From Sunxiuqinia dokdonensis (GTDB lineage Bacteria > Bacteroidota > Bacteroidia > Bacteroidales > Prolixibacteraceae): a stretch of 43,403 nt of DNA. The DNA lies in the NCBI RefSeq assembly GCF_001270965.1, contig NZ_LGIA01000210.1, positions 1 to 43,403 on the forward strand, given 5' to 3'. How positions within the stretch are numbered: position 1 is the stretch's first letter; every line of letters begins with the position of its first letter. Positions 2,088 to 18,045 of this stretch are shown here, in pieces. The notes beneath the pieces are model-generated. The model did no database searches. It was given only the letters and a program-made list of their open reading frames with translations, and was not told the DNA's origin. A program made the position numbers and the translations under genes.

Positions 2088-2852
2088 CTAAAGTTCCAGC
2101 AATGCTTTTATCTTATCATCATAATTGCGGCCACTCACCAACTTTGTCTTTTCGACATCATCCAAACGAACGACATACCGGCACCCCGAATGCTTGTCTA
2201 TTTCATGAATCAAAGACGAGTTGACCATTAGACTGCGGTGTATGCGTATGAAGTTTTCAGGTAGTTTGTCTTCCAGAAATTTCAAGCTGTGATCAATAAG
2301 ATACCTTTTACCATCTTTCATCACAATCGAAACATACTTATCCTCAGAAATAAAATAGCTAACATCGGTTATCCGTATGAGCAACATCCGGTCACCAATT
2401 TTCACAGGAATACTGGTCACCGATTTTCGCTTTTCAGGCGAAGAGTAGCTCGACAAAAGTCTCAACACCTGTTCTTTATTCCAGTCCTCCTTCAAATACC
2501 GGAGCTTTTCAATGGATCTTTTAACCCGCTCTTCTTTTACCGGTTTCACAAGATAATCGATGGCTGCCGTATCGAAGGCCTCCAAGGCATAATCGTCATA
2601 AGCTGTACAGAAGATCACGGCGGGAAAATGGCTCATTTTCTGAAGCACTTCAAAACCGTTCAGTCCCGGCATTTGAATATCCAGAAAAATCAGGTCTGGC
2701 TTCAATTGGTCAATCAAGCTCACGGCCTCCAAACCATTGGTGGCCTCACCGACAATTTCAACTTCAGGAATATCACCTAATATTTGTTGCATTCGCTGCC
2801 TGGCAGGGCCTTCATCGTCAATAATAATCGTTCGGTAGTGATTGCTTAACAT
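2088..2852 (-). CDS. LytTR-family response regulator
   Basis: 254 aa. The receiver domain (about 6-125) carries the acidic pair D12/D13, the phospho-acceptor D58 in LIFLDIQMPG, the conserved Thr in CTAYDDYA and the Lys in YLVKPVKEE. The LytTR DNA-binding domain occupies about 150-250 (KIGDRMLLI, FIRIHRSLMVNSSLI, KLVSGRNYDDKI). The gene lies 11 bp downstream of the LytS-type histidine kinase on the same strand, so the two form a cognate pair. No target site was identified. It ends in TAG. Confidence 0.92.
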   Translation of the reverse strand: MLSNHYRTIIIDDEGPARQRMQQILGDIPEVEIVGEATNGLEAVSLIDQLKPDLIFLDIQMPGLNGFEVLQKMSHFPAVIFCTAYDDYALEAFDTAAIDYLVKPVKEERVKRSIEKLRYLKEDWNKEQVLRLLSSYSSPEKRKSVTSIPVKIGDRMLLIRITDVSYFISEDKYVSIVMKDGKRYLIDHSLKFLEDKLPENFIRIHRSLMVNSSLIHEIDKHSGCRYVVRLDDVEKTKLVSGRNYDDKIKALLEL

Positions 2853-2863
2853 GCTGTTTTTTG

Positions 2864-4435
2864 TTACGAAAAAGGTAAAACAATAAGAATGTATTTCTCA
2901 GGCTCATTTTCCCACTTCAACCAAGCCTTGTTTTGGTAGATCAAATTTAGCTTCTCCTGAATACTTTGCAAACCATAGCCAGCGATAGGCTCACTAGGAA
3001 AACCAGGGCCGTTATCAAAAACCATGATCTTCAGTTGCTTGTTGTGCCGCTCAACCACAACTCGAATTTGCCCGTTGCTGGTCAGTTTTGAAAGGCCATG
3101 TTTCACCGCATTCTCAACAAGCGGTTGAATCAAAAACTGTGGAATCAGGACCTCTTCAAGTTCCCTTGAAATCTGTATTTCATAGTTGAGTCGATCTCCG
3201 AAGCGCACTTTCTCAATGGTCAGGTAGGTTTCAATCGATTCAATTTCCTCCTTTAAGCTCACCGTCTGCTTTTGCTCCTTATTGAGCGAATACTTAAAGA
3301 AATCGGACAAAGCCAGAGCCATTTGCTCGGTCTTTCGGCCATCGATCCTGGCCAGACTAGCTATCGAATTCAACGAATTGTACAAGAAGTGAGGATTGAT
3401 TTTAGACTGCAACGACTGCAGCTCAGCTTGTTTATGTAACTCGCTTAATTGCGCCAGTTGCACATCTTTCTCACACAACAGATTGCGCGACTGCATGCTC
3501 ATGTATATGTAAAACGTCCGGGCTACAGCAATAAGCGAACAAAACAAAACGGTTGTGACTGTAACACCAAAAATAACCTCCTTACCACCATTTGACGGCA
3601 TAATCACGGTTAAACCCATTGGCAGTAACGCAGGAATAAACGTCGTGGTCAAAAAGGGAATTAGCGTATTCAGCAATAAATTGTCTTTCCGGTTTTGAAG
3701 AATGCCAAATTCGACCAGGTAGATAAGAATAATGCTGATGACACCCAAAGCAGCTTGGCCTAACGTATTGGCAAGAACAATGAAATATTCAAATTTGACA
3801 TTCAAAAAATACACATTGATCGACGTTGAAACAGCGACTTGTATCAAATAAGCGAGAAAAACCAACATGCTCTGCCCGAGAAACTTACCAAAATCATAAT
3901 GATGATTTTTGATCACTCCGGCCTGCACAATCAGAATCAAATAAATAATCGCAATCAACATCCCAATTAATTGAGCACCGGAACTCACATAAAACCGGTT
4001 TCTCGGTGTGACGCTCTTGAATGAAACCGGAGGTTCTGCCTTTACGCCTCGCGAGCGATCGTCAAAAACTTTGGAATATAAAGCCTTTATTATTTTTCTA
4101 TCAATAGCGTGAAAGGTGATATCCTCCGGTTTTTTTTCGTCAAAAACTGCTCCAGCTATTCGATTGCGCGGATAGCTGGAATATCCATCGTTTTTAGAAC
4201 AATCAACTATTGCGCGTACCAAATAATAATAAAGAATCTTTTTTCTTTCCGGAAGCGATGTATTATTGGGAATATTTAGGATAACACGACTTTCTACAAT
4301 TTCTCTCGAATTATTACGAGCTTCAATCTGGTTTTCTTTTTCTTTGTTTGTTGGGCTGTTAATTTCAAGAACCAGATTGGCTGTCCCGACTTCTATCACG
4401 TAAACATCCCACGCATCAATGAGGGAGTCGAGCAT
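2864..4435 (-). CDS. LytS-type sensor histidine kinase, main part (N-terminus cut off by an in-frame TAG)
   Basis: 523 aa from the first ATG after the TAG. The N-terminal 140 residues look extracytoplasmic (soluble, with VGTANLVLEI, reminiscent of DUF2927-type domains, a weak match). About five membrane segments follow between residues 150 and 312, then a coiled linker. The His_kinase motif INPHFLYNSLNSIA has H349, and the HATPase_c domain shows LIQPLVENAVKHGL and DNGPGFP. Without the upstream fragment the sensor half would start on the wrong side of the membrane with no signal peptide, because the first 140 residues lack one. This argues that the gene was originally continuous with 4442-4657, which lies in the same frame. 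The kinase would phosphorylate the LytTR regulator 11 bp downstream. Confidence 0.85.
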   Translation of the reverse strand: MLDSLIDAWDVYVIEVGTANLVLEINSPTNKEKENQIEARNNSREIVESRVILNIPNNTSLPERKKILYYYLVRAIVDCSKNDGYSSYPRNRIAGAVFDEKKPEDITFHAIDRKIIKALYSKVFDDRSRGVKAEPPVSFKSVTPRNRFYVSSGAQLIGMLIAIIYLILIVQAGVIKNHHYDFGKFLGQSMLVFLAYLIQVAVSTSINVYFLNVKFEYFIVLANTLGQAALGVISIILIYLVEFGILQNRKDNLLLNTLIPFLTTTFIPALLPMGLTVIMPSNGGKEVIFGVTVTTVLFCSLIAVARTFYIYMSMQSRNLLCEKDVQLAQLSELHKQAELQSLQSKINPHFLYNSLNSIASLARIDGRKTEQMALALSDFFKYSLNKEQKQTVSLKEEIESIETYLTIEKVRFGDRLNYEIQISRELEEVLIPQFLIQPLVENAVKHGLSKLTSNGQIRVVVERHNKQLKIMVFDNGPGFPSEPIAGYGLQSIQEKLNLIYQNKAWLKWENEPEKYILIVLPFS

Positions 4436-4834: not shown

Positions 4835-6310
4835 TTAGTAAATCGCCTTCATGGCAGCCATGGCTGCACGCAGCTCTTCGCCGATGATTTCCACATCGTG
4901 GTAGCGAATCTGTGCATTCACTTCAATCAGCCGCTTGTTGTCGACATGGTTATCGAAACCTTCACCATAAGTTTCGCCAATCACGTCGAGTTCAATTTTC
5001 TTCATGAAATCACCCAGCAACGGCTTGCAGGCATGATCGAACAAGTAGCAACCATATTCGGCGGTATCGGAAATTACCCGGTTCATCTCGAACAGTTTTT
5101 TACGCGCAATGGTATTGGCAATCAGCGGGGTTTCGTGCAACGACTCATAATATGCCGACTCTTCTTTGATTCCGGCTTCGGTCATGGTTTCAAAAGCCAG
5201 CTCAACACCCGATTTCACAAAAGCCACCAGCAATACGCCATTGTCAAAGTATTCCTGCTCGCTGATTTCTTCGTCGGTTGCCGGTGTTTTTTCGAAAGCC
5301 GTTTCACCCGTTGCCGCGCGCCAGGTCAGCAGGTTTTTGTCGTCATTGGCCCAGTCTTCCATCATGGTTTTGGAGAATTCGCCCGACATGATGTCGTCCA
5401 TGTGCTTTTGAAACAGCGGACGCATAATGTCTTTCAATTCTTCAGCCAATTCGAAGGCTTTAATTTTGGCCGGATTCGACAAGCGATCCATCATATTCGT
5501 GATTCCACCGTGTTTCAAGGCTTCGGTAATCACTTCCCATCCATATTGAATCAATTTCGAAGCATAACCCGGCTCAATGCCTTTTTCAATCATTTTATTG
5601 AACGACAAAATCGAACCGGTTTGCAACAAGCCACACAAGATGGTTTGCTCACCCATCAAATCCGATTTCACTTCGGCCACAAACGACGAACGCAAAACGC
5701 CAGCTTTGTGCCCACCCGTAGCTACGGCGTAGGCTTTGGCAATTTCAAATCCATCGCCATTCGGATCATTTTCCGGGTGAACAGCGATCAGGGTTGGCAC
5801 CCCAAAACCACGCTTGTATTCTTCGCGCACTTCAGAGCCCGGTGATTTTGGCGCCACCATAATCACGGTAATGTCTTTCCGGATTTGCATGCCTTCTTCC
5901 ACAATGTTGAACCCGTGCGAATAGGAAAGCGTGGCCCCTTTTTTCATCAGGGGCATCACGGCTTCAATCACACTGGAGTGCTGCTTGTCAGGTGTCAGGT
6001 TGATCACCAAGTCGGCCGTTGGCAACATTTCTTCGTAAGTTCCTACTTTGAAGTTGTTGTCTGCCGCATTTTTATACGACTGGCGCTTTTCCTTGATGGC
6101 TGCTTCGCGCAGGGTGTACGATACATCCAATCCCGAGTCGCGCATGTTGAGCCCTTGATTTAGGCCCTGGGCCCCGCATCCAACGATCACCACCTTTTTG
6201 CCTTCCAGCTTTTTTACGCCGTCTGCAAATTCTGACTGATCCATAAACTCGCAGGTTCCCAATTGTTCCAATTGCAGACGCAACGGAAGTGTGTTAAAAT
6301 AATTTGCCAT
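4835..6310 (-). CDS. ilvC: ketol-acid reductoisomerase, class II (long form)
   Basis: 491 aa, the same length as the enterobacterial long-form enzyme and closely similar at the start ([18 protein letters not shown]). It converts 2-acetolactate and 2-aceto-2-hydroxybutyrate to the dihydroxy acids using NADPH and Mg2+, the second common step of valine and isoleucine synthesis. The Rossmann motif [12 protein letters not shown] is near residue 44, and [13 protein letters not shown] supplies the cofactor-specificity loop. Two tandem C-terminal knotted domains follow, as expected for class II. It is the last gene of ilvDBNC, 90 bp after ilvN, with a terminator just downstream. Confidence 0.98.
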
Positions 6311-6400: not shown

Positions 6401-6943
6401 TTAGTCAATCTGGTTCAGCAAGTTGTCGCGTTCCATTAGGAACTCCGACAAACGCTCGATCGGGTCGCGGGTAATGGCCACACGCCCCGAGCGAATAAAC
6501 TGCAGCACGCCAAACTGGTTTAAGGCCTCAAACAACTCCTGTGTTTCTTCCTTGTGTCCGGTTTTTTCGATCACGGTGTATTCGCGGGTAATTTCCAGAA
6601 TACGGGCACCGGCTTTGCGAACCAGACGTTCAACCTGGTCGCTGTCGTACAAGGTATCGGTTTGAACCTTGTACAGTGCAATTTCCTGAAAAACCATCTC
6701 ATCGTTGGTGTGGTAAAAGGCTTTGAGGACTTCGACCACTTTTTCCAGTTGCCCCACCACTTTTTTCACGCGGTCTTCTTCTTCTCTGACCACGATGGTG
6801 AATTTTGAAATCCCCTTGATGGCCGATTCAGAAACCGTTAAACTTTCAATGTTCATTTTACGCCTGGTAAAATTGATCGTAATCCGGTTGAGCAAACCGA
6901 TGTGGTTTTCCGAATATATGGTAATGATAAATTCCTGTCTCAT
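6401..6943 (-). CDS. ilvN: acetolactate synthase small (regulatory) subunit
   Basis: 180 aa. The N-terminal ACT domain (about 4-80; ITIYSENHIGLLNRITINFTRRKMNIESL) binds the feedback inhibitor valine in this family. A C-terminal regulatory domain (about 85-160) follows, with EYTVIEKTGHKEETQELFEAL and GVLQFIRSGRVAI. It activates and confers feedback control on IlvB. It begins 18 bp after ilvB. The length fits the long (ilvH-like) version of about 160-180 aa, so ilvH would be an equally fair symbol. Confidence 0.95.
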   Translation of the reverse strand: MRQEFIITIYSENHIGLLNRITINFTRRKMNIESLTVSESAIKGISKFTIVVREEEDRVKKVVGQLEKVVEVLKAFYHTNDEMVFQEIALYKVQTDTLYDSDQVERLVRKAGARILEITREYTVIEKTGHKEETQELFEALNQFGVLQFIRSGRVAITRDPIERLSEFLMERDNLLNQID

Positions 6944-6961: not shown

Positions 6962-8659
6962 TTAAGCTTCAAGAATAATGTCTGAAACTGATGCTCCTGA
7001 CGGAACCATGGGGAACACGTTGTCTTCCTTCTCGACAACAACCTCCAGCAAATATGGGCCGTCGTGATCAAGCATCCTTTGAATGCCGTCTTCCAATTCT
7101 TCGCGTTTAGTTACTTGGTGCCCTTCCATTCCGAAACCTTTTCCAATCATAATGAAGTCCGGGTTTTGCAGTTCGGTAAATGAATAGCGTTTTTCAAAGA
7201 ACAGCTGTTGCCACTGACGCACCATTCCGAGGAAATTGTTATTCAGGAGAATGATTTTTACCGGCAGTTTGTTTTGTACGATGGTGCCCAGCTCCTGCAA
7301 GGTCATTTGGAAACCACCATCGCCCACAAAGCAGCAAACGGTACGGTCTTTAGCGCCCAGCTGCGCTCCCATGGCCGCCGGAATGGCGTAGCCCATGGTT
7401 CCGAGTCCGCCGGACGTGACGTTACTCTTGGATTGGGTAAACTTGAAGTAGCGCGAGGCGATCATTTGTTGTTGGCCCACATCGGTGACCAACACCGCAT
7501 TGTGCTTGGTTTTTTCTGAAGTGATACGAACAGCCTCACCCATGGTCAGTCCAACTTTATCGGGGCGAATGTCTTTATCAATCACTTTCTCACGTTCAAT
7601 TTGATCGCAGTCCCGGAACTCCTGAATCCACGCGTCGTGGTTGTTTTCCTTCACGTTGTCGATCAGCATGGCCAGCGATTTTTTGGCATTCCCCAGAACG
7701 GCCACATCGGTTTTGATAATCTTATCAATCTCTGCCGGATCCACTTCGAGATGAATAATCTTGGCATTTTTGGCGTATTCGCTCACCTTTCCGGTCACCC
7801 GGTCATCGAAGCGCATGCCGACGGCGATAATCAAATCGGCCTCGTTCGTTTTAATGTTGGGCCCGTAATTTCCGTGCATCCCCAACATGCCCACATTCAG
7901 CGGATGATCGGTTGGCATGGCCGATAAACCAAGCAAAGTCCAGGCTGCCGGAATCCCGGTTTTCTCCACAAAAGCTTTCAGCTCCGCTTCGGCTTGGGCA
8001 ATGATGACGCCTTGGCCGAAAAGCAACAATGGTTTTTTCGCCTGATCAATCAGCCAGGCAGCAGCCTTCACCTTAAATGGATCAACCTGATGCTCGGGAA
8101 TATAGGAACGGATTTTCTTACACTTTTTATAGCTGAAATCAATTTCCTGGAACTGGGCATCTTTGGCAATATCGAGCAGCACAGGCCCCGGACGACCCGA
8201 TTGCGCAATGTAAAATGCTTTGGCAATGGCATCAGGAATTTCATCGGCGTTGGTAATCTGATAATTCCATTTGGTGATGGGCATCGAAATACCCACCACA
8301 TCCGACTCTTGAAAAGCATCGGTACCGAGCAGCGGCGAAGCCACTTGTCCGGTAATGCAAACCAAGGGAATCGAGTCAATCATTGCATCGGCGATTCCGG
8401 TAATCAGGTTGGTGGCACCTGGCCCCGAGGTGGCAAAACACACGCCAGCCTTGCCAGTCACTTTGGCATAACCTTCGGCGGCATGCACGGCACCTTGCTC
8501 GTGGCGGGTCAAAATGTGAGACACTTGTTTGTCGTAATCGTAAAGGGCATCGTAAATGGGCATGATCGCCCCGCCCGGATATCCAAAAATGGTATCAACG
8601 CCTTCTTCCAACAAGGAAAGAATAACGGCTTTTGAACCTGTAATACGCTTTATTGCCAT
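6962..8659 (-). CDS. ilvB: acetolactate synthase large (catalytic) subunit
   Basis: 565 aa ThDP- and FAD-dependent enzyme that condenses pyruvate with pyruvate or 2-oxobutyrate. The catalytic Glu lies in LTRHEQGAVHAAEGYA, the central domain begins around residue 190, and the ThDP/Mg motif is GDGGFQMTLQELGTI...NNNFLGMVRQWQ. It follows ilvD by 24 bp and precedes ilvN by 18 bp. The ilvD TAG and the ilvB ATG happen to be in the same frame, but IlvD ends there at its normal length, so this is ordinary operon spacing rather than a fusion. Confidence 0.97.
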   Translation of the reverse strand: MAIKRITGSKAVILSLLEEGVDTIFGYPGGAIMPIYDALYDYDKQVSHILTRHEQGAVHAAEGYAKVTGKAGVCFATSGPGATNLITGIADAMIDSIPLVCITGQVASPLLGTDAFQESDVVGISMPITKWNYQITNADEIPDAIAKAFYIAQSGRPGPVLLDIAKDAQFQEIDFSYKKCKKIRSYIPEHQVDPFKVKAAAWLIDQAKKPLLLFGQGVIIAQAEAELKAFVEKTGIPAAWTLLGLSAMPTDHPLNVGMLGMHGNYGPNIKTNEADLIIAVGMRFDDRVTGKVSEYAKNAKIIHLEVDPAEIDKIIKTDVAVLGNAKKSLAMLIDNVKENNHDAWIQEFRDCDQIEREKVIDKDIRPDKVGLTMGEAVRITSEKTKHNAVLVTDVGQQQMIASRYFKFTQSKSNVTSGGLGTMGYAIPAAMGAQLGAKDRTVCCFVGDGGFQMTLQELGTIVQNKLPVKIILLNNNFLGMVRQWQQLFFEKRYSFTELQNPDFIMIGKGFGMEGHQVTKREELEDGIQRMLDHDGPYLLEVVVEKEDNVFPMVPSGASVSDIILEA

Positions 8660-8683: not shown

Positions 8684-10513
8684 CTAATCAATTAATCGAA
8701 TGGCGCCTTGATCTGCCGATGAAACCAGGCTGGCATAGGCTTTCAGCGCTTTGCTGACCACGCGGTTTCTGCCGGCAGGCCGATAGGCTGCTTTACCTTT
8801 TGCTTGTTCGGCCGCTTTTCTTTTGGCCATTTCTTCATCCGAAATCAGCAGGTTGATCTTGCGTTCGGGAATGCTGATTTCGATGAGGTCACCGTCTTCA
8901 ATCAGCGCGATTTCGCCACCGGCTGCTGCTTCGGGAGATACGTGCCCAATCGAAAGGCCGGAAGTTCCTCCGGAAAATCGCCCATCGGTAATCAGGGCAC
9001 AGGCCTTATCCAGTTTCATGGATTTGATATACGAGGTGGGATACAACATTTCCTGCATGCCCGGTCCGCCCTTCGGCCCTTCGTAGCGGATGACCACCAC
9101 ATCGCCGGCCTGCACAGAGTCGCCAAGAATTCCATTGACCGCATCATCCTGCGACTGGAATACCTTGGCAGTTCCTTTAAAAGTGTACACTGAAGGATCG
9201 ACACCTGCTGTTTTAATGATGCATCCGTTGCGGGCAATGTTTCCAAACAAAACAGCCAATCCGCCATCTTTGCTGTAAGCATGCTCCAAATCACGGATGC
9301 AGCCTTTTTCACGATCGGTGTCCAATGCTTTATAATAACTTTCCTGTGAGCCCATCACATTGTTGCGGACTCCGGCCGGAGCCGATTTGTACTTGGTGAT
9401 CACTTCTTCGGAAACCTCCGGATTCATGACATCATATTTCTGAATGGCCTCAGCCAGCGTCAGTCCGTCAACCCGCGAAACTGAAGTATCGAGCAAACCC
9501 GCCCGGTCCATTTCGGCCAAAATACCGAGAATTCCACCCGCCCGGTTTACATCTTCGATATGATACTCGGAATTGGGTGCCACCTTACACAAGTTGGGCG
9601 TGTTGCGCGAAAGCTTATCAATATCTTCCATCGTAAAATCAACCCCGGCTTCGTGTGCAATGGCCAAAATATGCAACACCGTGTTGGTGGAGCCGCCCAT
9701 CGCGATATCGAGTTTCATCGAGTTTTCGAACACCGCTTTGGTCGCAATTCCTCGAGGGGTTACCTTTTCGTTTCCGTTTTGGTAATGGTCGTAAGTGATG
9801 TCGATAATGCGGTTGGCTGCTTCGGCAAACAGTTTGTTACGATTGGCATGGGTCGCCACAATGGTTCCGTTTCCGGGCAAAGCCAGCCCAAGGGCTTCGG
9901 CCAAACAGTTCATCGAGTTGGCTGTGAACATGCCCGAGCAGGATCCACAGGTTGGACAAGCTTCCTGTTCCACCCGCAAAATGGTTTCATCCGACACGGA
10001 ATCGTCGGCGGCCATCACCATGGCATCAACCAAATCATAGGATTTCTCGTCGATTTTTCCGGCTTCCATTGGTCCGCCTGAAACAAAAATGGCCGGAATG
10101 TTTAAACGCATTGCGGCCATCATCATTCCCGGAGTAATTTTATCACAGTTTGAAATGCAGATCATCGCATCGGCTTTGTGCCCGTTGCACATGTACTCAA
10201 CACTGTCGGCAATCACATCGCGCGAAGGCAACGAATACAACATCCCATCATGCCCCATGGCAATGCCATCATCAATGGCAATGGTATTAAACTCAGCGGC
10301 AAAACAGCCTCTTTCCTCAATCAGGGCCTTAATTTCCTGACCAATATGATGCAAGTGAACATGCCCCGGAACAAACTGGGTAAACGAATTAACAATGGCA
10401 ATCATGGGCTTTCCAAATTGCTCTTCCTTCACCCCATTGGCTCTCCACAGACTTCGGGCTCCCGCCATCTTGCGTCCCTCGGTGGTCGTGGCTGATCTCA
10501 ATCTTTTCTGCAT
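8684..10513 (-). CDS. ilvD: dihydroxy-acid dehydratase
   Basis: 609 aa from the ATG at 10513. An upstream in-frame TTG at 10519 is possible but [20 protein letters not shown] is the typical start. The enzyme is iron-sulfur-dependent and makes the 2-oxo acid precursors of valine/leucine and isoleucine. The cluster cysteines are visible in SNCDKITPG and [19 protein letters not shown], and the C-terminal domain has [16 protein letters not shown]. It is the first structural gene of ilvDBNC and lies immediately downstream of two attenuators. It ends in TAG at the expected family length (about 610-616 aa). Confidence 0.97.
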
Positions 10514-10536
10514 TTTCAATCTGATTTTTTATTTTT

Positions 10537-10566
10537 AAAAAAGCCCTTCTCATAGAGAAAGGCTTT
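10537..10566 (-). terminator. ilv attenuator terminator 2
   Basis: Minus-strand hairpin AAAGCC-TTTCTC / GAGAAG-GGCTTT (arms 10555-10566 and 10540-10551, one internal mismatch, 3-base loop) followed by TTTTTT. It lies 24-53 bases before the ilvD ATG. Its 5' arm is also complementary to the segment immediately after leader peptide 2 (10594-10601), the classic terminator/antiterminator switch. Confidence 0.85.
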
Positions 10567-10601
10567 CGAATTTTATTTGTTCAACAATCCCCGGCCTTTC
10601 T
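10556..10601 (-). promoter_or_regulatory. antiterminator pairing of ilv attenuator 2
   Basis: In the minus-strand transcript, AGAAAGGC (10601-10594, overlapping the last base of the leader 2 stop codon) is a perfect 8-bp complement of GCCTTTCT (10563-10556), which is most of the 5' arm of terminator 2. If a ribosome stalls on the Val/Leu/Ile codons this pairing can form first and block the terminator. The pairing is read directly; the mechanism is inference from classical attenuation. Confidence 0.7.
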
Positions 10602-10660
10602 TAGTGAAACACTAGAATGACGACTAGAAGGACCAAATGAATTGTTGTAAACTGTCTCAT
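10601..10660 (-). CDS. ilv leader peptide 2
   Basis: ATG at 10660 and TAA at 10601 encode 19 aa, MRQFTTIHLVLLVVILVFH. Ten of the 19 residues are Ile, Leu or Val, including nine in a row (LVLLVVILV), which is the composition expected of a branched-chain amino acid attenuation leader. It lies between terminator 1 and terminator 2, with no good promoter of its own, so it would be transcribed only when terminator 1 is read through. The core CTTCTAGTCGT is shared with leader 1, suggesting that the two modules are related by duplication. Confidence 0.8.
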   Translation of the reverse strand: MRQFTTIHLVLLVVILVFH

Positions 10661-10679
10661 AAATCAAAGTGCTATAAAT

Positions 10680-10711
10680 GAAAAAAGCCATTCCCCCTGA
10701 TGAGAATGGCT
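10680..10711 (-). terminator. ilv attenuator terminator 1
   Basis: Minus-strand perfect 8-bp stem AGCCATTC/GAATGGCT (arms 10704-10711 and 10686-10693, 10-base loop) followed by TTTTTT. It lies 27 bases after the leader 1 stop codon and upstream of leader 2, so it would stop transcription before the second module. Confidence 0.85.
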
Positions 10712-10741
10712 ATCGGTTAACCCAACGTACGACATCCTCAC
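10700..10741 (-). promoter_or_regulatory. possible antiterminator pairing of ilv attenuator 1
   Basis: In the minus-strand transcript GUGAGGAUG (10741-10733, overlapping the leader 1 stop codon) can pair over 9 bp, including two G-U pairs, with CAUUCUCAU (10708-10700). That segment contains most of the 5' arm of terminator 1. It is less stable than the counterpart in module 2, so the call is more tentative. Confidence 0.5.
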
Positions 10742-10806
10742 TTCGCCTGCGAAATGACCACGACTAGAAGAATAAGGACGTTGGATATGATAGCCTGTAA
10801 TTTCAT
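10738..10806 (-). CDS. ilv leader peptide 1
   Basis: ATG at 10806 and TGA at 10738 encode 22 aa beginning MKLQAIISN, then VLILLVVVI, then SQAK. Eleven of 22 residues are Ile, Leu or Val, nine consecutively. It begins about 20 bases after the -7 element of a good Bacteroidota promoter (10827-10856) and is followed by terminator 1. By analogy with ilvGMEDA and ilvBN leaders, ribosome stalling when charged Val/Leu/Ile tRNAs are scarce would prevent termination. Confidence 0.85.
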   Translation of the reverse strand: MKLQAIISNVLILLVVVISQAK

Positions 10807-10826
10807 TTTTATTGTTATTAGTGGAG

Positions 10827-10856
10827 CAAATGTAGAAATTAATCCGCAAAGACAAA
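10827..10856 (-). promoter_or_regulatory. Bacteroidota promoter of the ilv operon
   Basis: Minus strand: TTTG (10856-10853), an 18-bp spacer, then TACATTTG (10834-10827), an exact match to TTTG-N-TAnnTTTG. Transcription would start near 10820, leaving a short leader before the first leader peptide at 10806. Confidence 0.8.
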
Positions 10857-11182
10857 ATTAATTCGTAAGTAAAAACTAGTTTTTTTCTGTGATTTAATAT
10901 CTAAAGCCAATCTCTGCAAATAAAATAGAAGAAGAAATCAACTTACAACTTATAAAAACGACGAAAGAAAGGCTTTGAAAACCAAGCAATCAACGCCTCA
11001 ACAATACTCTGCCTGCGATTCGTCCCATCTGACACAAGCAGAAAAGCGTTGCCGACTAAATTTTCTTTTCACCGGCGAATAGCGACAACACAATTCAAGA
11101 CAAGCCGTTTTCTGAAACCCTTGATTTTAGTGGTCCCCGAGTAGGTATCACCCTCCCCGGCGGCTTTTCACCCCCCACAACG

Positions 11183-11327
11183 GAAAATCACCTACCCCTG
11201 CCTGAAATTTCATCGCTACAGCGGGAAATGCCCCTCCACGATAGGAAATTTCGGCTCCACAATGAAAAACGAGCAGCCCCTGAGCAGAATTTCAGCTCCA
11301 CAGCGCGAAATGACCTCTCCCTGATCC
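11183..11327. repeat. degenerate 21-bp periodic repeat, paired into 42-bp units
   Basis: GAAA/GAAT-type words recur at 11183, 11204, 11225, 11245, 11264, 11287 and 11307 (spacings 19-23, mean about 21). The words GAAATTTC-A/G...GCT-C/A-CA recur at 11204, 11245 and 11287, giving a superimposed period of about 42. Copies are diverged. The surrounding gene-free stretch 10857-12003 shows no convincing gene or RNA apart from this repeat, the array at 11370 and a possible promoter at 11803. Confidence 0.6.
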
Positions 11328-11369
11328 TGTTTTTGTGTCGCAATTACCTCTGCAGATCCGTCAATCGGT

Positions 11370-11537
11370 CATTTTTCTAATTTAATCGGCAGTAGGAAGC
11401 CTCCCCTAAGCCATTTTTTGAATTTAACTGGCACCGGGAAGCGCCCCCGGGGCAAATTCTCGAAGTCAACCGGCTTGAGGAGGCATCCCCGGGACCATTT
11501 CTCTGCTTTCAGGGGCTGACTGATCTTTTCCCCAGGC
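11370..11537. repeat. degenerate 42-bp tandem repeat, four copies
   Basis: Units at 11370-11411, 11412-11453, 11454-11495 and 11496-11537 each begin with CATTTxTxTxxTTT-like sequence and end with a C-rich/CCxGGGC-like block. A partial fifth starts at 11538 (CATTTCTCTGGTTCCAT). On the minus strand the array can be read as 14-residue repeats (for example KKWLRGGFLLPI), but the 65-aa frame has no sign of being a gene. The period equals that of the array at 19174-19425. Confidence 0.7.
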
Positions 11538-11802
11538 CATTTCTCTGGTTCCATTACGCTTCGCAATCATTCTGCGGGATATCGCTCCCAAAAAATGCTC
11601 GTTGCATGAAAATTATTCCTAACCGATCGGCGGCATGATCCACTTTTCATCGGAATTTCTCTTCGGCCTGCCTGAACTTGGCGCGATTGCTCAAGCATCG
11701 ATAAACAGACCATGCCTTGCGGTAACATTGCACACACAGCCTCACCGACCTGTTAAACTTTTCAACAAAATATGTGTTAGTTGAATCGTTATTTTGAAAA
11801 GA

Positions 11803-11833
11803 CTTGGCCGATTGATGTTTTTAACTATTTTTG
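11803..11833 (+). promoter_or_regulatory. possible promoter of the surface-protein operon
   Basis: CTTG (11803-11806), 19-bp spacer, TATTTTTG (11826-11833). The -7 element is an exact TAnnTTTG match while the -33 has one mismatch. It would give a leader of roughly 165 bases before the gene at 12004, with no obvious structure seen in it. Confidence 0.35.
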
Positions 11834-12003
11834 ATCAGGTCTTAATCATACAAATATTAAAGAACTAAACAGCTAAACGAATTAGAAATAAACACCTAAA
11901 TCTTATCAATAGCAGACACAAAAACGCAAATTCTCAACAATCAATCCCCATAAACCCGGAAAACTCAGCAATTAATCATTCAATAACCCATAATTCAGCG
12001 TGT

Positions 12004-12444
12004 ATGAGAAAAATTTACCTTGTTTTAATGATTTGGATCTTTGGTACAAGTGGACTATTGGCCCAAGTATCCGATCAGGAAGCCCAGATTCTGCAGCTGT
12101 GTATTGATTTACCTGAAATACAGGAATTCTATCCACAGTTCGATGACGAATCCAAGGCAGCCGTCTATATCATGCAATATCCGATTGCAATATCGACCGA
12201 CCTCCCGCTTCAAAAGTTCAACAAACAACCGGTTTACATGAGTCGGCATGAAATCTATGACAACAACGTTGATGCCTATTTCCTGTTCAAGCAAATTGAT
12301 GTTGGAAGTCAATCCGCCTTTGTTGAATACACCATGTATTACGATTACAACAGCGATGATCAAAAGATCGTGAACATCAGCCTTGATTTTCAAAAATCAG
12401 ATGCGGGCTGGGCGGTGCAAAATACCCAACTGGAACATAAATAG
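12004..12444 (+). CDS. small exported protein of unknown function
   Basis: 146 aa with a Sec signal peptide (MRKIYLVLMIWIFGTSGLLAQ, predicted cleavage after about residue 20). The mature part of about 125 residues has one Cys, many aromatic residues and a predicted beta-rich C-terminal half (SAFVEYTMYYDYNSDDQKIVNISLDF). I do not recognise the family. It ends in tandem stops TAG TAA and lies 21 bp before the giant repeat protein, so it is likely the first gene of a three-gene secretion operon. A chaperone or accessory role for the repeat protein is possible but unsupported by sequence. Confidence 0.75.
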   Translation: MRKIYLVLMIWIFGTSGLLAQVSDQEAQILQLCIDLPEIQEFYPQFDDESKAAVYIMQYPIAISTDLPLQKFNKQPVYMSRHEIYDNNVDAYFLFKQIDVGSQSAFVEYTMYYDYNSDDQKIVNISLDFQKSDAGWAVQNTQLEHK

Positions 12445-12465: not shown

Positions 12466-15400
12466 ATGAACAAACAGAATAAGATGCTCGCCTTTTTTAA
12501 AAGGCGAAGTGCCCTGCTGACTATTATTCTATTGTCAGCTATTTGGACAACACCTTCTTTGGCTCAATCTCCTTTATGTGACTCCTACCCAACTATGTTT
12601 TGTTGTGAATATATCTCAGAAGTTAGCATTAATGGTGCTTCCGCTGCCGGAGCTCCCGACGCTACCGGATTTGCCACCGGCCCAGGCTATATTGACCATA
12701 CTTCGTCAAGCCTGACGACTTTGGTTGCCGGAAGTACCTACCCAGTTTCGGTGACCGTAAAAACAGGTAGCACCTACCAAGAATATGTCAAAATCTGGTT
12801 TGATTTTAACGGGAATGGTGACCTCACTGATATCGGAGAGTTAGTGTATGAAGCCGATCAGAATATTGATGGAACCTATACCTTTAATGGAACTATTACA
12901 GTTCCCAACGATGTGTTTAATGGTGATGTCTATATTCGAGTTGTGATGACCTTTGAAAATTCGCCAACACTTTGCGGAGAGTATGACTACGGGACCACCA
13001 TTGATTTGAAAGCCACTATAACCGGAGGAGTTGACCCTCATGTTCTTCAGGTATCAGTTGCAAGTTCTGGAGGGCTTACTGGCACCGTAATCAGCTCACC
13101 GGGAGGTATTAGCACCGGAACAGAACAAGAAATGGCCAACTTTGCGGATGGTTCAACCGTGACCCTAACGGCAAATCCTTCCGGAGCAGCATCCTTCAAC
13201 GGCTGGACTGGAGACGTGACAAGCACCAGTAACCCGCTTGAGGTGGTCATGAATGAGGCTAAAAACATCACTGCCAATTTTGGCCCGCCAAATGCTGCAC
13301 CCAGCTTTAACAACGGTGCTACAGCCTCACTCACGGTTGACGAAGACGCAGCAACAACCTCAATCAACGATTTATTGGCCATTACCGATACCGATACGGG
13401 CAACCCGTTGACATGGTCTGTAGCGACAGCTCCCACCAACGGCAGCCTGAGCGGATTTAATGCTACGGCTACCAGCACAGGCTCGTCGGTTACCCCAAGT
13501 GGATTGAGCTACACCCCAGCCAACGGCTATAGCGGATCCGACTCGTTTCTCATCGAAATTAGCGATGGTACAGCAACGGCTCAAATCACGGTGAATGTGA
13601 CGGTGAGAGCCAGCCAAAGCATTACTTTCGACGCGATTGGTACCAAAACCTATGGCGATGCTGACTTCACCCTCGGCGAGGCAACCACCGACGAAGGATT
13701 GACGGTGACCTACACCGCCGATGATCCCACCATCGTTTCGATTAGTGGGAATACCGCCAGCATTCTGAAAGCGGGAAGCACCACCATCACAGCAAGCCAG
13801 GATGGCGATGCCACCCATGCGCCAGCCACTTCGGTACAACAAACCCTGGATGTTTCAAAAAAAGAATTGACAGTGACAAGCGCCGTAGCAGCCGACAAGA
13901 TTTACGATGGAAACACCGATGCGACCATCAGCGGAGCAACTTTAAGCGGACTTGTAGGCAGCGATGATGTCACTTTGGGCGATGCAGCAACTGGAACCTT
14001 TGCGCAAGCCACAGTAGGCACAGGCATTTCTGTTGGGACAGCCATGACCATCAGTGGAGCCGATGCCGGAAACTATACGCTGACACAGCCGGTGCTCACT
14101 GCCGATATTACGCCAAAAGCCTTAACGATTACTGCTGAAGACAAATCCAAGACCTACGACGGAGCAGTTTACAGTCCATTCACCGTGACTTATTCCGGCT
14201 TTATAACCAGCGAAGATGAAACGGCGCTGGATGGAACACTCTCCTTCAGCGGCACAGCCACTACCGCTACGAATGTGGGAACAGCATATGGCATCAGCCC
14301 CGGCGGATTGAGCGCTTCAAACTACGACATCACCTTTGTAGATGGAAAGCTGGACATTATGCCGAAAGAATTAACTGTAAGCGATGCTGTAGCAGCCGAT
14401 AAGGTTTACGACGGTCAAGCCGATGCTGTCATCAGCAGTGCGATCCTTTCGGGGGTGGTCGGAACTGACGAGGTTTCGCTGGACAACCATACCTCAGGCG
14501 TATTTGCACAAGCCGGAGCGGGCACAAACATCGAAGTAAACACGTCAATGACCATCAGCGGAGCAGATGCCGGAAACTACAGTTTGACACAACCGGCACT
14601 GACTGCCAACATCACGAAAAAGGCTTTAACGATTACGGCCGACAACCAAACCAAGACTTATGATGGTGAGGTTTACAGCCCATTCACCGTAACTTATTCC
14701 GGCTTTGTAGCAGGTGAAGATGAAAACGATTTGGCAGGCGCCCTCAGCTTTACGGGTTCTGCAGCTACTGCGACTGATGTTGGCAAAGGCTATGTTATTA
14801 CCCCCGAAGGCTTGAGCTCGTCGAACTACGACATCTCTCTTGTTGACGGCGAACTGGAAATCTACCCCAAAACCTTAACCGTAACGGCAGACGATCAGAG
14901 CAAGGAATATGACGGTGCTGTATTTAGTTCGTTCACGGTAAGCTATAGTGGATTTGCAACGGGTGAAGATGAAAACGATCTGGGTGGTGTTCCTACCTTC
15001 AGCGGAACAGCCATTTCGGCAACTGATATTGGCGAAGATTATACCATCATCCCGGGAGGACTGAGTTCCTGGAATTATTCGATCAACTACGTGAGTGGCA
15101 TGCTGGACATCACAGCAAAAGAGCTGCAAGTTTTAAATGCAACGGCAGCCGACAAGGTCTACGACGGCCAGACCGATGCCCTCATCAGCGGTGCAATCCT
15201 GTCGGGGGTAGTCGAAGGCGAGGATGTTACTTTGAGTAACATGACCACAGGTACATTTGCACAGGAAGGTGCTGGCGAGAACATCACCGTAAGCACATCC
15301 ATGATCATCAGCGGTGCAGATGCCGACAAATACACTTTGGTACAGCCAACACTAACCGCCAATATCACGAAGAAAGATCTAACGGTTACTGCTGAAGACA

Positions 15401-18045
15401 AATCCAAGATTTATGATGGTGCGGTTTATAGCCCATTCACCGTGACTTATTCTGGTTTTGTAACAGGCGAAGACGAGAATGATCTGGGAGGTGCGCTTGA
15501 TTTCAGTGGCACAGCGACCACAGCAACCGATGCGGGGACAGCCTATGTGATTACCCCCGAAGGTTTGAGCTCGTCAAACTATGCCATCACTTTTATTGAC
15601 GGCAAGTTGGATATTACGCCAATGGAACTGACTGTGACTGCCGATGCCGGACAAACAAAAGTCTATGGCGAAGCAGATCCGGTATTCACTTACGCGGTTG
15701 CACCTGCCTTGGAAACTGGCGACAGCTTCTCAGGCGAACTGAGCCGTGCAGCTGGTGAAGATGTTGGCTCGTATGCCATCGGGCAGGGAACACTGACTGC
15801 CGGAGCCAACTACGACCTCAGCTTTGTCAGCAGCGATTTCAGCATCACCCAAAAACCAATTACGGTGACTGCCGATGCCGGACAAACAAAAGTTTATGGT
15901 GAAGCAGACCCGGTATTCACCTACGCGGTTGCATCTGCTTTGATAACTGGCGACGACTTCTCAGGCGAACTGAGCCGCGCAGCCGGTGAAGATGTTGGTG
16001 ATTATGCCATCGTGCAGGGAACACTGACTGCCGGAGCCAATTACGATCTCAGCTTTGTCAGCAGCGATTTCAGCATTACACAAAAAGCCATTACCGTGAC
16101 TGCCGATGCCGGACAAACGAAAGTTTATGGTGAAGCAGACCCGACATTCACTTACGTGGTTGCACCTGCTTTGATAACTGGCGACAGCTTCGCGGGCGAA
16201 CTGAGCCGCGTAGCCGGTGAAGATGTTGGCTTGTATGCGATCGGCCAGGGAACACTGACTGCCGGAGCCAATTACGACCTCAGCTTTGTCAGCAGCGATT
16301 TCAGCATTACACAAAAAGCCATTACCGTGACTGCCGATGCCGGACAAACTAAAGTTTATGGTGAAGCAGATCCCGTATTCACCTACGCGGTGGCACCTGC
16401 TTTGATAACTGGCGACGACTTCTCAGGCGAACTGAGCCGCGCAGCCGGTGAAGATGTTGGTGATTATGCCATCGGCCAGGGAACACTGACTGCCGGAGCC
16501 AACTACGACCTCAGCTTTGTCAGCAGCGATTTCAGTATCACTCAAAAGCCAATTACGGTGACTGCCGATGCCGGACAAACAAAAGTTTATGGCGAAGCAG
16601 ATCCGGTATTCACTTACGCGGTTGCACCTGCCTTGGAAACTGGCGACAGCTTCTCAGGCGAACTGAGCCGTGCAGCTGGTGAAGATGTTGGCTTTTATGC
16701 GATCGGCCAGGGAACACTGACTGCCAGTTCGAATTACGATCTCAGCTTTGTCAGCAACGATTTCAGCATCACCCAAAAGCCAATTACGGTGACTGCCGAT
16801 GCCGGACAAACAAAAGTGTACGGCGAAACAGATCCGGTATACACTTACACGGTGGCACCTGCCTTGGAGAGCGGGGATGTCCTGAACGGAGCGCTGTCAA
16901 GAGAAGCCGGAGAAGATGCAGGTTCATACTTGATCACTCTGGGCAGCTTGACCGCAGGTTCAAACTACGAATTAATCTTAGCCAGCGAATCGTTCATCAT
17001 CACACAAGCCTCGCAGAGCATCAGCTTTAGCCCGATTCCATCGAAGCACCTGGAAACCGATGCAGATTTTACGTTGGATGCGACCGCGAGCTCAGGTCTT
17101 CCGGTAAGCTACACCTACACGTACAGTGCGACGGAAGCTCCCGCCACCGTTTCCGAAGATGGATTTGTCAGCTTGATGAGCTCGGGCGAAGTTGAAATTA
17201 CCGCTTCACAAGCCGGGAACAACAACTACCTCCCTGCAGAACCCGTAAGCCAGTGGCTGACAATTACCAGTTCGGATGCCAGTATTCACAGTTTCACGAT
17301 TAAAGGAGAGGACTTCGTCCAACCTGATCTGGAATTCTACTACCGGATGGATTGCGACGAACAGGAGACATCAGTAAGCATTAACTACAGTACCGATGCC
17401 AATGCCTCCTCAAGCGAAACAAACCCATTGGTCATTGAAACACCAGGCCCCGGGATTTACCGCAAAAGCGTGACGATCACTTCGCAAGATGAAAGCCAGC
17501 AACAGACCTACCATATCACCGTTGAAAAGGGCTTCCGTTTTGATGAAATCATCGAACAGAAGTACAACAACGTTTTATTGGTGAACAACAACCCCGATAC
17601 CAATGGAGGCTACCGTTTTACAAGCTTCAAATGGTATAAAAACGGCCAGTTGATCAGCACCGGGCAATACTACTCGGCAGGTGATGATGCTTCAGACCGA
17701 CTGGATCCGAACGCATCTTATTCGGTAGAGCTAACGACCACGGACAATCAGGTGCTTCGTACTTGTGAATTCAACATTGAGCTGAACAGTGCCTTTGCCT
17801 TGACAGCGAGTCCCAATCCGGTAAGAGCGGGAAGTACGATTGAAGTGGTAACAAACTACAGCAACAACATGCTGGTCGATCGCACGGTGCAGATTACAAG
17901 TCTGTACGGAGCTCCGATCTTGCGAGAGGTATCGGCCAGCAACGAAACCACGATTACACTCCCCAACAGCATGGCTCCGGGAACCTATGTCGTGACAACA
18001 GTTGCTTCGGGCGTTGTTCTCAACACAAAAATCATAGTTCAGTAA
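12466..18045 (+). CDS. giant secreted MBG/YDG-repeat protein with T9SS-like C-terminal domain
   Basis: 1859 aa. Order: signal peptide (about 1-33, ending LAQ); GEVED-like domain (about 40-190, with YVKIWFDFNGNGDLTDIGE); a short repeat domain of the divergent InlB B-repeat type (about 192-272, ending NITANFG); an Ig/cadherin-like domain (about 275-380, TLTWSVA-like core and NGYSGSDSFLIEISDG); a Big-like domain (about 385-462). Alternating YDG domains (KIYDG or KVYDG starts near 480, 645 and 895) and MBG-type domains (KTYDGAVYSPFTVTYSGF near 555, 725, 805 and 970) follow. Then come six near-identical 77-residue MBG repeats (1054-1515), another Big-like domain, and a C-terminal domain from about 1778 (SPNPVRAGSTIEV...APGTYVVTT...KIIVQ) resembling T9SS type A sorting domains. 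It is probably exported by T9SS and anchored or released at the cell surface as an adhesin or matrix protein. Ligand unknown. Confidence 0.9.
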   Translation: MNKQNKMLAFFKRRSALLTIILLSAIWTTPSLAQSPLCDSYPTMFCCEYISEVSINGASAAGAPDATGFATGPGYIDHTSSSLTTLVAGSTYPVSVTVKTGSTYQEYVKIWFDFNGNGDLTDIGELVYEADQNIDGTYTFNGTITVPNDVFNGDVYIRVVMTFENSPTLCGEYDYGTTIDLKATITGGVDPHVLQVSVASSGGLTGTVISSPGGISTGTEQEMANFADGSTVTLTANPSGAASFNGWTGDVTSTSNPLEVVMNEAKNITANFGPPNAAPSFNNGATASLTVDEDAATTSINDLLAITDTDTGNPLTWSVATAPTNGSLSGFNATATSTGSSVTPSGLSYTPANGYSGSDSFLIEISDGTATAQITVNVTVRASQSITFDAIGTKTYGDADFTLGEATTDEGLTVTYTADDPTIVSISGNTASILKAGSTTITASQDGDATHAPATSVQQTLDVSKKELTVTSAVAADKIYDGNTDATISGATLSGLVGSDDVTLGDAATGTFAQATVGTGISVGTAMTISGADAGNYTLTQPVLTADITPKALTITAEDKSKTYDGAVYSPFTVTYSGFITSEDETALDGTLSFSGTATTATNVGTAYGISPGGLSASNYDITFVDGKLDIMPKELTVSDAVAADKVYDGQADAVISSAILSGVVGTDEVSLDNHTSGVFAQAGAGTNIEVNTSMTISGADAGNYSLTQPALTANITKKALTITADNQTKTYDGEVYSPFTVTYSGFVAGEDENDLAGALSFTGSAATATDVGKGYVITPEGLSSSNYDISLVDGELEIYPKTLTVTADDQSKEYDGAVFSSFTVSYSGFATGEDENDLGGVPTFSGTAISATDIGEDYTIIPGGLSSWNYSINYVSGMLDITAKELQVLNATAADKVYDGQTDALISGAILSGVVEGEDVTLSNMTTGTFAQEGAGENITVSTSMIISGADADKYTLVQPTLTANITKKDLTVTAEDKSKIYDGAVYSPFTVTYSGFVTGEDENDLGGALDFSGTATTATDAGTAYVITPEGLSSSNYAITFIDGKLDITPMELTVTADAGQTKVYGEADPVFTYAVAPALETGDSFSGELSRAAGEDVGSYAIGQGTLTAGANYDLSFVSSDFSITQKPITVTADAGQTKVYGEADPVFTYAVASALITGDDFSGELSRAAGEDVGDYAIVQGTLTAGANYDLSFVSSDFSITQKAITVTADAGQTKVYGEADPTFTYVVAPALITGDSFAGELSRVAGEDVGLYAIGQGTLTAGANYDLSFVSSDFSITQKAITVTADAGQTKVYGEADPVFTYAVAPALITGDDFSGELSRAAGEDVGDYAIGQGTLTAGANYDLSFVSSDFSITQKPITVTADAGQTKVYGEADPVFTYAVAPALETGDSFSGELSRAAGEDVGFYAIGQGTLTASSNYDLSFVSNDFSITQKPITVTADAGQTKVYGETDPVYTYTVAPALESGDVLNGALSREAGEDAGSYLITLGSLTAGSNYELILASESFIITQASQSISFSPIPSKHLETDADFTLDATASSGLPVSYTYTYSATEAPATVSEDGFVSLMSSGEVEITASQAGNNNYLPAEPVSQWLTITSSDASIHSFTIKGEDFVQPDLEFYYRMDCDEQETSVSINYSTDANASSSETNPLVIETPGPGIYRKSVTITSQDESQQQTYHITVEKGFRFDEIIEQKYNNVLLVNNNPDTNGGYRFTSFKWYKNGQLISTGQYYSAGDDASDRLDPNASYSVELTTTDNQVLRTCEFNIELNSAFALTASPNPVRAGSTIEVVTNYSNNMLVDRTVQITSLYGAPILREVSASNETTITLPNSMAPGTYVVTTVASGVVLNTKIIVQ
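15625..17010 (+). repeat. six tandem 231-bp coding repeats (MBG domains)
   Basis: Units start at 15625, 15856, 16087, 16318, 16549 and 16780, exactly 231 bp (77 codons) each, and all are in frame. The first five are nearly identical at the DNA level. The sixth is diverged in its second half, as if the array grows or is homogenised from the left. Each unit opens with TVTADAGQTKVYGEADP and closes with LSFVSSDFSITQK. Such an array is prone to copy-number change by recombination and to collapse in short-read assemblies. Confidence 0.92.

Follow-up and report, generated by a model that had tools for sequence, protein, structure and literature searches.

The ilvDBNC operon of Sunxiuqinia dokdonensis is preceded by two complete sets of attenuator elements in series, each composed of a leader ORF with nine consecutive branched-chain codons, a complementary segment at its stop codon and a terminator-like hairpin with a T-run. 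We consider it probable (about 0.78) that they represent two complete ribosome-mediated transcription attenuators acting serially on one transcript. This reading is based on the anatomy of the leader, its conservation, a single promoter motif and module-specific pairing in silico. The window, i.e. the whole stretch of DNA analysed, comprises 43,403 nucleotides (contig NZ_LGIA01000210.1) of a genome (G000) of 4.96 Mb. On its minus strand, one promoter is followed by leader 1, terminator 1, leader 2, terminator 2 and ilvDBNC, as listed here:

10827..10856, minus strand: promoter TTTG-N18-TACATTTG, read as a motif (TTTG 10856-10853; TACATTTG 10834-10827)
10738..10806, minus strand: leader 1 (distal ORF), MKLQAIISNVLILLVVVISQAK, 22 amino acids, nine consecutive I/L/V
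10789..10795, minus strand: segment 1, GGCTATC within leader 1, complementary to GATAGCC, which overlaps the 5' arm of terminator 1
10733..10741, minus strand: distal segment 2, GTGAGGATG, at the leader 1 stop codon, pairs with CATTCTCAT
10711-10686, T-run to 10681, minus strand: terminator 1, AGCCATTCTC-ATCAGG-GGGAATGGCT, class CCATTC, from the hairpin scan
10601..10660, minus strand: leader 2 (proximal ORF), MRQFTTIHLVLLVVILVFH, 19 amino acids, nine consecutive I/L/V
10594..10601, minus strand: proximal segment 2, AGAAAGGC, at the leader 2 stop codon, pairs with GCCTTTCT
10567-10539, T-run to 10537, minus strand: terminator 2, GAAAGCCTTTCTC-TAT-GAGAAGGGCTTTT, class CCTTTC, from the hairpin scan
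8684..10513, minus strand: ilvD, dihydroxy-acid dehydratase (NF009103, 1056 bits; TIGR00110, 794 bits)
6962..8659, minus strand: ilvB, acetolactate synthase large subunit (TIGR00118, 722 bits)
6401..6943, minus strand: ilvN, acetolactate synthase small subunit (TIGR00119, 107 bits)
4835..6310, minus strand: ilvC, ketol-acid reductoisomerase (NF003557, 927 bits)

This order agrees with a preliminary description of the window, which had named a promoter, leaders of 22 and 19 amino acids, two terminators and then ilvD. A recount of the nine consecutive Val, Leu and Ile residues that it had reported for each leader gave the same number, and both leaders are short ORFs with a run of end-product codons. 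The described complementarity between the stop-codon segments and the 5' arms of the terminators was also present: GTGAGGATG and CATTCTCAT form nine pairs, two of them G-U, in the distal module, and AGAAAGGC and GCCTTTCT form eight pairs in the proximal module. As judged from the DNA sequence, each leader ORF is followed, ahead of the first gene, by a terminator-like hairpin and a T-run. RNA folding, which the preliminary description had suggested as a check, was run on 10830-10515 and returned both terminators with a z-score of -4.0, which was equalled by none of 100 shuffles. In a simple terminator scan of 10400-12100, terminator 1 was the sole site listed, with shuffles averaging 2.0; terminator 2 had no entry there and was picked up by a separate hairpin scan. 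The start of ilvD was set to ATG 10513 instead of TTG 10519 of the ORF list because the ATG is kept in the relatives L004, L007 and L008. No Rfam family reached its gathering score in the window, and no T-box RNA was found. The closest named ilvD loci belong to metagenome-assembled genomes of Odoribacter sp. (81%) and Prolixibacteraceae bacterium (80%, 74% and 73%).

Two neighbouring features of the window may be mentioned here. Divergent from the ilv operon, the plus strand encodes a 1859-aa protein (12466-18045) that carries a T9SS type A sorting tail and weakly matches the tandem-95 repeat. Downstream of ilvC, the region 2088-4435 (minus strand) likely encodes a response regulator and histidine kinase pair, with matches below the curated cut-offs.

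Upstream regions of ilvD were scanned for modules, defined as an ATG ORF of at most 33 amino acids with at least seven I/L/V in ten codons and a terminator-like hairpin within 90 nt. In a set of 199 loci, in which some species are likely present twice, 550 nt could be scanned at 196 loci; the other three have shorter upstreams. No module was found in 36 of these real upstreams, one in 141 and two in 19. Not a single module appeared in 1960 dinucleotide shuffles, 196 reverse strands or 77 stretches located 550-1100 nt upstream. Locus L206, scored as a tandem by the script, was dropped since inspection by eye identified the sequence as the end of an upstream gene. L019 fell just under the cut-off, and L222, with two leaders by eye, is likewise outside the 19.

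For a survey of the family, the leader cut-off was lowered slightly to six of ten I/L/V. An ilvD match at E 1e-150 was obtained in 94 of 100 genomes, and 90 upstreams were read, leaving out G010, G021, G026 and G066 (partial genes or no upstream). The script assigned one module to 72 upstreams, two to 15 and none to three. Among the script-negative loci, L132 has a single module by eye with an ORF beyond the length limit, the upstream of L141 ends at the contig end, and no such leader was seen in L173. All six ilvD regions read in the genus carried the tandem; a seventh genus genome (71% complete) gave no ilvD hit. The remaining family tandems came from g15 (four of four read), from g3, g23, g18 and g13 (one genome read each) and from g19 (one of 12). 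A single module is the rule in the family, and the tandem is conserved in the genus and scattered elsewhere in the family. The preliminary description had looked to related genomes, and to the composition of their leaders, for a check of its proposal: the pair is kept in 6/6 genus members and occurs in 15/90 family upstreams, and the leaders of relatives are rich in I/L/V, with longest runs of 4 to 10. The tandem arrangement is real, because close relatives keep the same pair. That most relatives have one module was counted against the serial reading.

Outside the family, 60 of 91 further ilvD-positive genomes of the order were read. L221 and L222 showed two leaders by eye, the second hairpin of L222 having no clean T-run, and in L213, from another family, the tandem appears partly decayed. 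Among the 49 named Bacteroidota loci scanned, taken from the 80 matches listed, three from Marinifilaceae (L073, L082 and L086) have two I/L/V leaders before ilvD, each followed by a hairpin, with other terminator sequences. They possibly represent an independent tandem. A plasmid search with IlvD yielded only more distant copies, with at most 72% identity among the matches listed.

The program used for promoter scanning covers sigma-70 forms, and a Bacteroidetes-type promoter lies outside its scope. The motif TTTG-N18-TACATTTG matches what we take to be the Bacteroidetes promoter form. In 13 of the 15 family tandems, a strict TTTG-N17..19-TAnnTTTG is located no further than 120 nt upstream of leader 1; in the other two, L005 and L006, TTTT replaces TTTG. 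Among the 72 single-module loci, 62 also have the strict form no more than 160 nt ahead of the leader, and the distal module occupies the same promoter-adjacent position as the single module does elsewhere. Between terminator 1 and leader 2, TAnnTTTG was absent in all 15 tandems, so the stages look serial, and an internal promoter that would place them in parallel was rejected. One TATGTTTG with a poor -33 box is located between leader 1 and terminator 1 of L025. Since the distal module is adjacent to the promoter and no motif separates the modules, both terminators should share one transcript, as far as promoter motifs can indicate.

Consensus folds of 12 clade members (six from the genus, four from g15 and one each from g3 and g23) displayed, for both modules, a 1:2 and a 3:4 helix. 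There was little covariation, with two-sided changes in 1/29 and 0/21 pairs of the clade alignments. To each segment 2, the 5' arm of its own terminator was the better partner. In the window, the duplex of distal segment 2 was calculated at -11.1 kcal/mol with its own arm and at -7.4 kcal/mol with the proximal arm; proximal segment 2 reached -12.2 kcal/mol with its own and -8.0 kcal/mol with the distal arm. Averaged over the 15 tandems, the distal 2:3 duplex was at -13.4 kcal/mol with the own vs -7.9 kcal/mol with the other arm, and the proximal duplex at -15.7 vs -11.1 kcal/mol. The own arm was preferred by 15/15 distal and 14/15 proximal modules, the exception being L025. When segment 2 was shuffled, at most 10 of 200 shuffles were as good in 93 of 102 modules. 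Nine modules failed this cut, including the distal modules of L001, L004, L005, L007 and L155 and that of the window, where 28/200 shuffles were as good and the 2:3 duplex is not clearly better than chance.

Folding with a masked ribosome footprint was computed for transcripts not yet extending into segment 4. Ribosomes placed on I/L/V codons gave a mean share of 2:3 pairing of 0.61 in distal and 0.75 in proximal modules. At the stop codon it was 0.02 and 0.07, respectively, values that are not independent evidence because a mask at this position necessarily takes segment 2 away. The shares without a ribosome (0.13 distal, 0.36 proximal and 0.52 in the 72 single modules) mean that the model without ribosome does not always predict termination. 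The margin of the best stalled codon over the stop codon was larger than 0.2 in 15/15 distal, 15/15 proximal and 72/72 single modules. After shuffling of segment 2, the best stalled codon gave a mean of 0.41 vs 0.81 for the real sequences, and 6/150 shuffles were as good. These model calculations support a switch with the stalled ribosome as in classical attenuation. Full-length folding with segment 4 present was carried out for eight modules from four loci. In seven of them the terminator formed for almost every placement of the ribosome. Antitermination there must therefore be kinetic, and full-length equilibrium folding hardly discriminates as a test of it; in the distal module of L118, the 3:4 share was at most 0.5 at 13 of 24 ribosome positions. 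In the distal module of the window, 2:3 pairing was favoured for stalls at codons 6-10 or thereabouts, partly at codon 11 and hardly later. Later stalls mostly left GGCUAUC available for pairing with the arm of the terminator. This segment is invariant (GGCTATC) in the distal leaders of 12/12 relatives, and the GATAGCC that it complements overlaps the terminator 1 start at 10711.

According to the serial reading, RNA polymerase would start at the single promoter upstream of leader 1, and in each module the ribosome translating the leader would decide the fold. A ribosome that has reached the stop codon would cover segment 2 and thereby permit 3:4 pairing, formation of the terminator and a stop of transcription. 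If the ribosome stalls on Ile, Val or Leu codons for want of charged tRNA, 2:3 pairing would allow the polymerase to pass. With both leaders translated, polymerase stopping at both terminators and the stages acting independently, ilvDBNC would be reached only by polymerases passing both gates, Q = Q1 x Q2. This product would lower basal expression. Since both stages contribute additively to the logarithmic gain, the response to branched-chain shortage would also become steeper. We take the sensitivity measure from the available part of PMC1183508; its extension to two stages is our own. The multiplicative gate proposed in the preliminary description follows if both modules work, and each has its own antiterminator pairing in silico. 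The pair probably makes control stricter. Against this reading, an experiment cited in the accessible text of PMC1262725 found similar leaders before ilvB of Streptomyces coelicolor unresponsive to codon substitution.

The terminators of the two modules belong to different classes. In the family tandems, distal terminators were CCATTC in 15/15 and proximal terminators CCTTTC in 15/15. The 72 single-module loci comprise seven CCATTC modules, 11 modules of g19 and 54 CCTTTC-like modules, for eight of which the script's reading was shifted out of register by one base (x = C). As tabulated, segments 2, 3 and 4 concur at the base separating the classes in 71 of 102 modules; reading a tied register the other way adds ten more. 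A T in segment 2 opposite A was found in 6/7 single CCATTC modules and in 15/15 leuA modules tabulated; the corresponding base is A in 15/15 proximal modules and A or G in 45/46 single CCTTTC modules. Distal modules have this T in 5/15, and ten more are tied between registers: they were tabulated with A opposite A, two or three registers tying at 5/6 and the first being kept, and the other register of the tie, located at the stop codon (AGGATG or AGGGTG), places T opposite A in all ten. Departures from the base rule are L138, L156 and the eleven g19 modules (T opposite T). These come from 11 of the 12 g19 genomes (L012-L017, L020-L023 and L026), in which a single module joins a segment 2 T to a CCTTTC terminator. 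Eight of the 11 leaders end in LLRAE like the distal leader of L011, the twelfth g19 genome, where both modules are present. Judged by its sequence, the g19 single module resembles a distal leader fused to a proximal terminator. In four g7 genomes (G054, G012, G032 and G043; loci L126, L129, L130 and L134), the CCATTC hairpin AACCATTCTC stands without an I/L/V leader before an intact proximal module and is likely a relic of the distal module. The order CCATTC then CCTTTC was seen again, by eye, in L221 from another family.

Tandem duplication followed by divergence, the origin favoured in the preliminary description, is not supported, as the two terminators are of different classes and the distal one is of the leuA class. 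A comparison of the distal, proximal and leu modules within ten genomes was not decisive for duplication, and no origin is claimed on its account. Tentatively, with somewhat less than even odds, the distal module may have been derived from the attenuator of a leu operon. CCATTC is common to the distal ilv terminators (15/15) and to leuA, where it was found in 6/6 genus upstreams and in 16/19 usable family upstreams. The genus leuA upstreams, all above the family cut-off, have one leader followed by this terminator, e.g. MTRIYSISILGILLGILLWMR in G000. In the family, 20 leuA upstreams were fetched and one (L295) was dropped as it ends at the contig end; 15 had a leader by script, and L296, L302 and L305 had no CCATTC terminator. 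Upstream of leuA in the genome of the window (L279, G000:C156), a single Ile/Leu leader precedes the CCATTC terminator. In this genome, the pattern CCATTCTC-N3..9-GRGARTGG matches only the distal ilv terminator and a site before leuA; for CCTTTCTC-N3..9-GRGARRGG, the proximal ilv terminator is the sole match. The reversed-pattern control gave 0 hits. In the tandem genomes G018 and G023, leuA lies near ilvD, about 4 kb downstream on the same strand. Spacers were slightly more alike between distal and leu modules (mean z 1.3) than in the other pairs (-0.1 and 0.7). However, the leader ORFs of distal and leu modules were less alike (mean z 1.3 in ten genomes) than those of distal and proximal (3.0) or proximal and leu modules (2.3), and a class defined by few bases can converge.

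An ilvD tree of 78 rows, built by a quick method with 29/75 inner branches drawn open and weak support at depth, implies at least eight changes between the tandem and other states, gain and loss not being distinguished. An old pair with repeated loss and fusion likely explains the pattern best. A more elaborate reading, which we regard as doubtful, combines such an old, repeatedly lost or fused pair with a leu-type attenuator gained before the ilv-type. The result would be an insulated cascade with an Ile-weighted first and a Leu/Val-weighted second stage, forming an AND gate on tRNA charging. Since the classes differ at the key base, each antiterminator would act on its own stage. If true, such a cascade would be the leader-peptide counterpart of the tandem T-boxes in Bacillota.

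The codon content of the leaders bears on what the two stages may sense. Over the 15 tandems, Ile/Leu/Val totals were 74/43/64 in distal and 43/57/49 in proximal leaders, and the Ile share was higher in the distal leader in 12/15, the others being L011, L118 and L155. All three amino acids are present in every leader. The suggestion in the preliminary description that the two stages could sense different amino acids has weak support. Codon changes were compared in nine related distal leaders of equal length and in six rows of proximal leaders. I/L/V codons of the distal leader showed 13 synonymous changes, 13 changes from I/L/V to I/L/V and four leaving this group, with 48% expected to leave; in the proximal leader, the eight synonymous, five within-group and eight leaving changes gave little conservative excess. 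An AND gate of distinct signals, with the distal stage sensing Ile first and the proximal stage Leu and Val first, is unlikely. It would fit the different Ile/Leu/Val counts and the predicted response of the distal fold of the window to stalls at early codons, among them Ile6, Ile7 and Val10, but stalling at any one of several codons should suffice, L011, L118 and L155 lack the bias, and the 12 Ile-biased tandems are not independent because they form one clade of near relatives.

It is very unlikely that the proximal module alone regulates and the distal one is a relic with read-through or a weak terminator: decay occurs elsewhere (the leaderless hairpin of g7, the partly decayed L213) and the distal duplex of the window is slightly weaker than the proximal one, but 12/12 members of the genus and three near genera retain the distal leader, its stop-codon segment, the terminator and the T-run in intact form, the I/L/V codon changes of the distal leader are conservative, and terminator 1 would have to be passed for ilvDBNC because the promoter motif precedes the distal module and none is found before leader 2.

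To our knowledge, the classical branched-chain attenuators have one module each, whereas the ilv leader described here has two complete modules in series. Published systems are compared below as described in the available portions of the reports. With the classical attenuators of E. coli and Salmonella ilvGMEDA, ilvBN and leu (PMC1183508), the ilv leader shares an end-product-rich leader peptide, an antiterminator segment, an intrinsic terminator and a biosynthetic operon. Salmonella mgtCBR (PMC3641672) likewise has two leader ORFs in the 5' leader of one operon. It differs in that the signals are ATP and proline, the effect was reported to be additive and the hairpins are unlike intrinsic terminators, whereas in the ilv leader a terminator-like hairpin belongs to each module and branched-chain codons abound in both ORFs. 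In mefA/msrD (PMC10314930), two ribosome-mediated attenuators with the leaders MefAL and MsrDL respond to the same signal and msrD is located behind both; however, the system responds to macrolides and the attenuators are separated by mefA. The rimP-leader of several Gammaproteobacteria (PMC2965389) has two serial terminators in one leader, but it belongs to a different gene, and the portion of the report available mentions no amino-acid leader.

A further comparison concerns the tandem T-boxes of Bacillota (PMC12452182), two serial terminator switches that control branched-chain genes and sense tRNA charging; for tandems with the same ligand, a pseudo-cooperative response is expected. Unlike the ilv leader, they consist of tRNA-binding RNA without a leader peptide. 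The statement of the preliminary description that known branched-chain operons use one leader is thus borne out for leader peptides in the literature seen, but not for the tandem T-boxes. The ilv tandem seems to have reached this logic by a route of its own. In the available parts of the attenuation papers from the Lyubetsky group, there is no mention of a tandem. A 2010 survey, in the text available, states that leader-peptide systems were previously known, before its additions, only in Proteobacteria and Actinobacteria, and short ORFs resembling leaders are briefly touched on in the accessible part of a Bacteroides transcriptome paper. The literature covered, which includes subscription journals in part, yielded no tandem of leader-peptide attenuators for an operon of amino-acid biosynthesis.

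Textbooks usually depict attenuation with a single leader and a single terminator for each biosynthetic operon. Tandem T-boxes in Bacillota and tandem leaders in the present family suggest that different lineages reached series control of the same pathway. The finding also points to a large set of leader-peptide attenuators at ilvD and leuA in Bacteroidota, a kind of element for which this window gave no Rfam match. A conserved natural pair in a family of mostly single modules offers a direct test of the benefit of a second stage, which may be a lower basal level, a steeper response or separate sensing.
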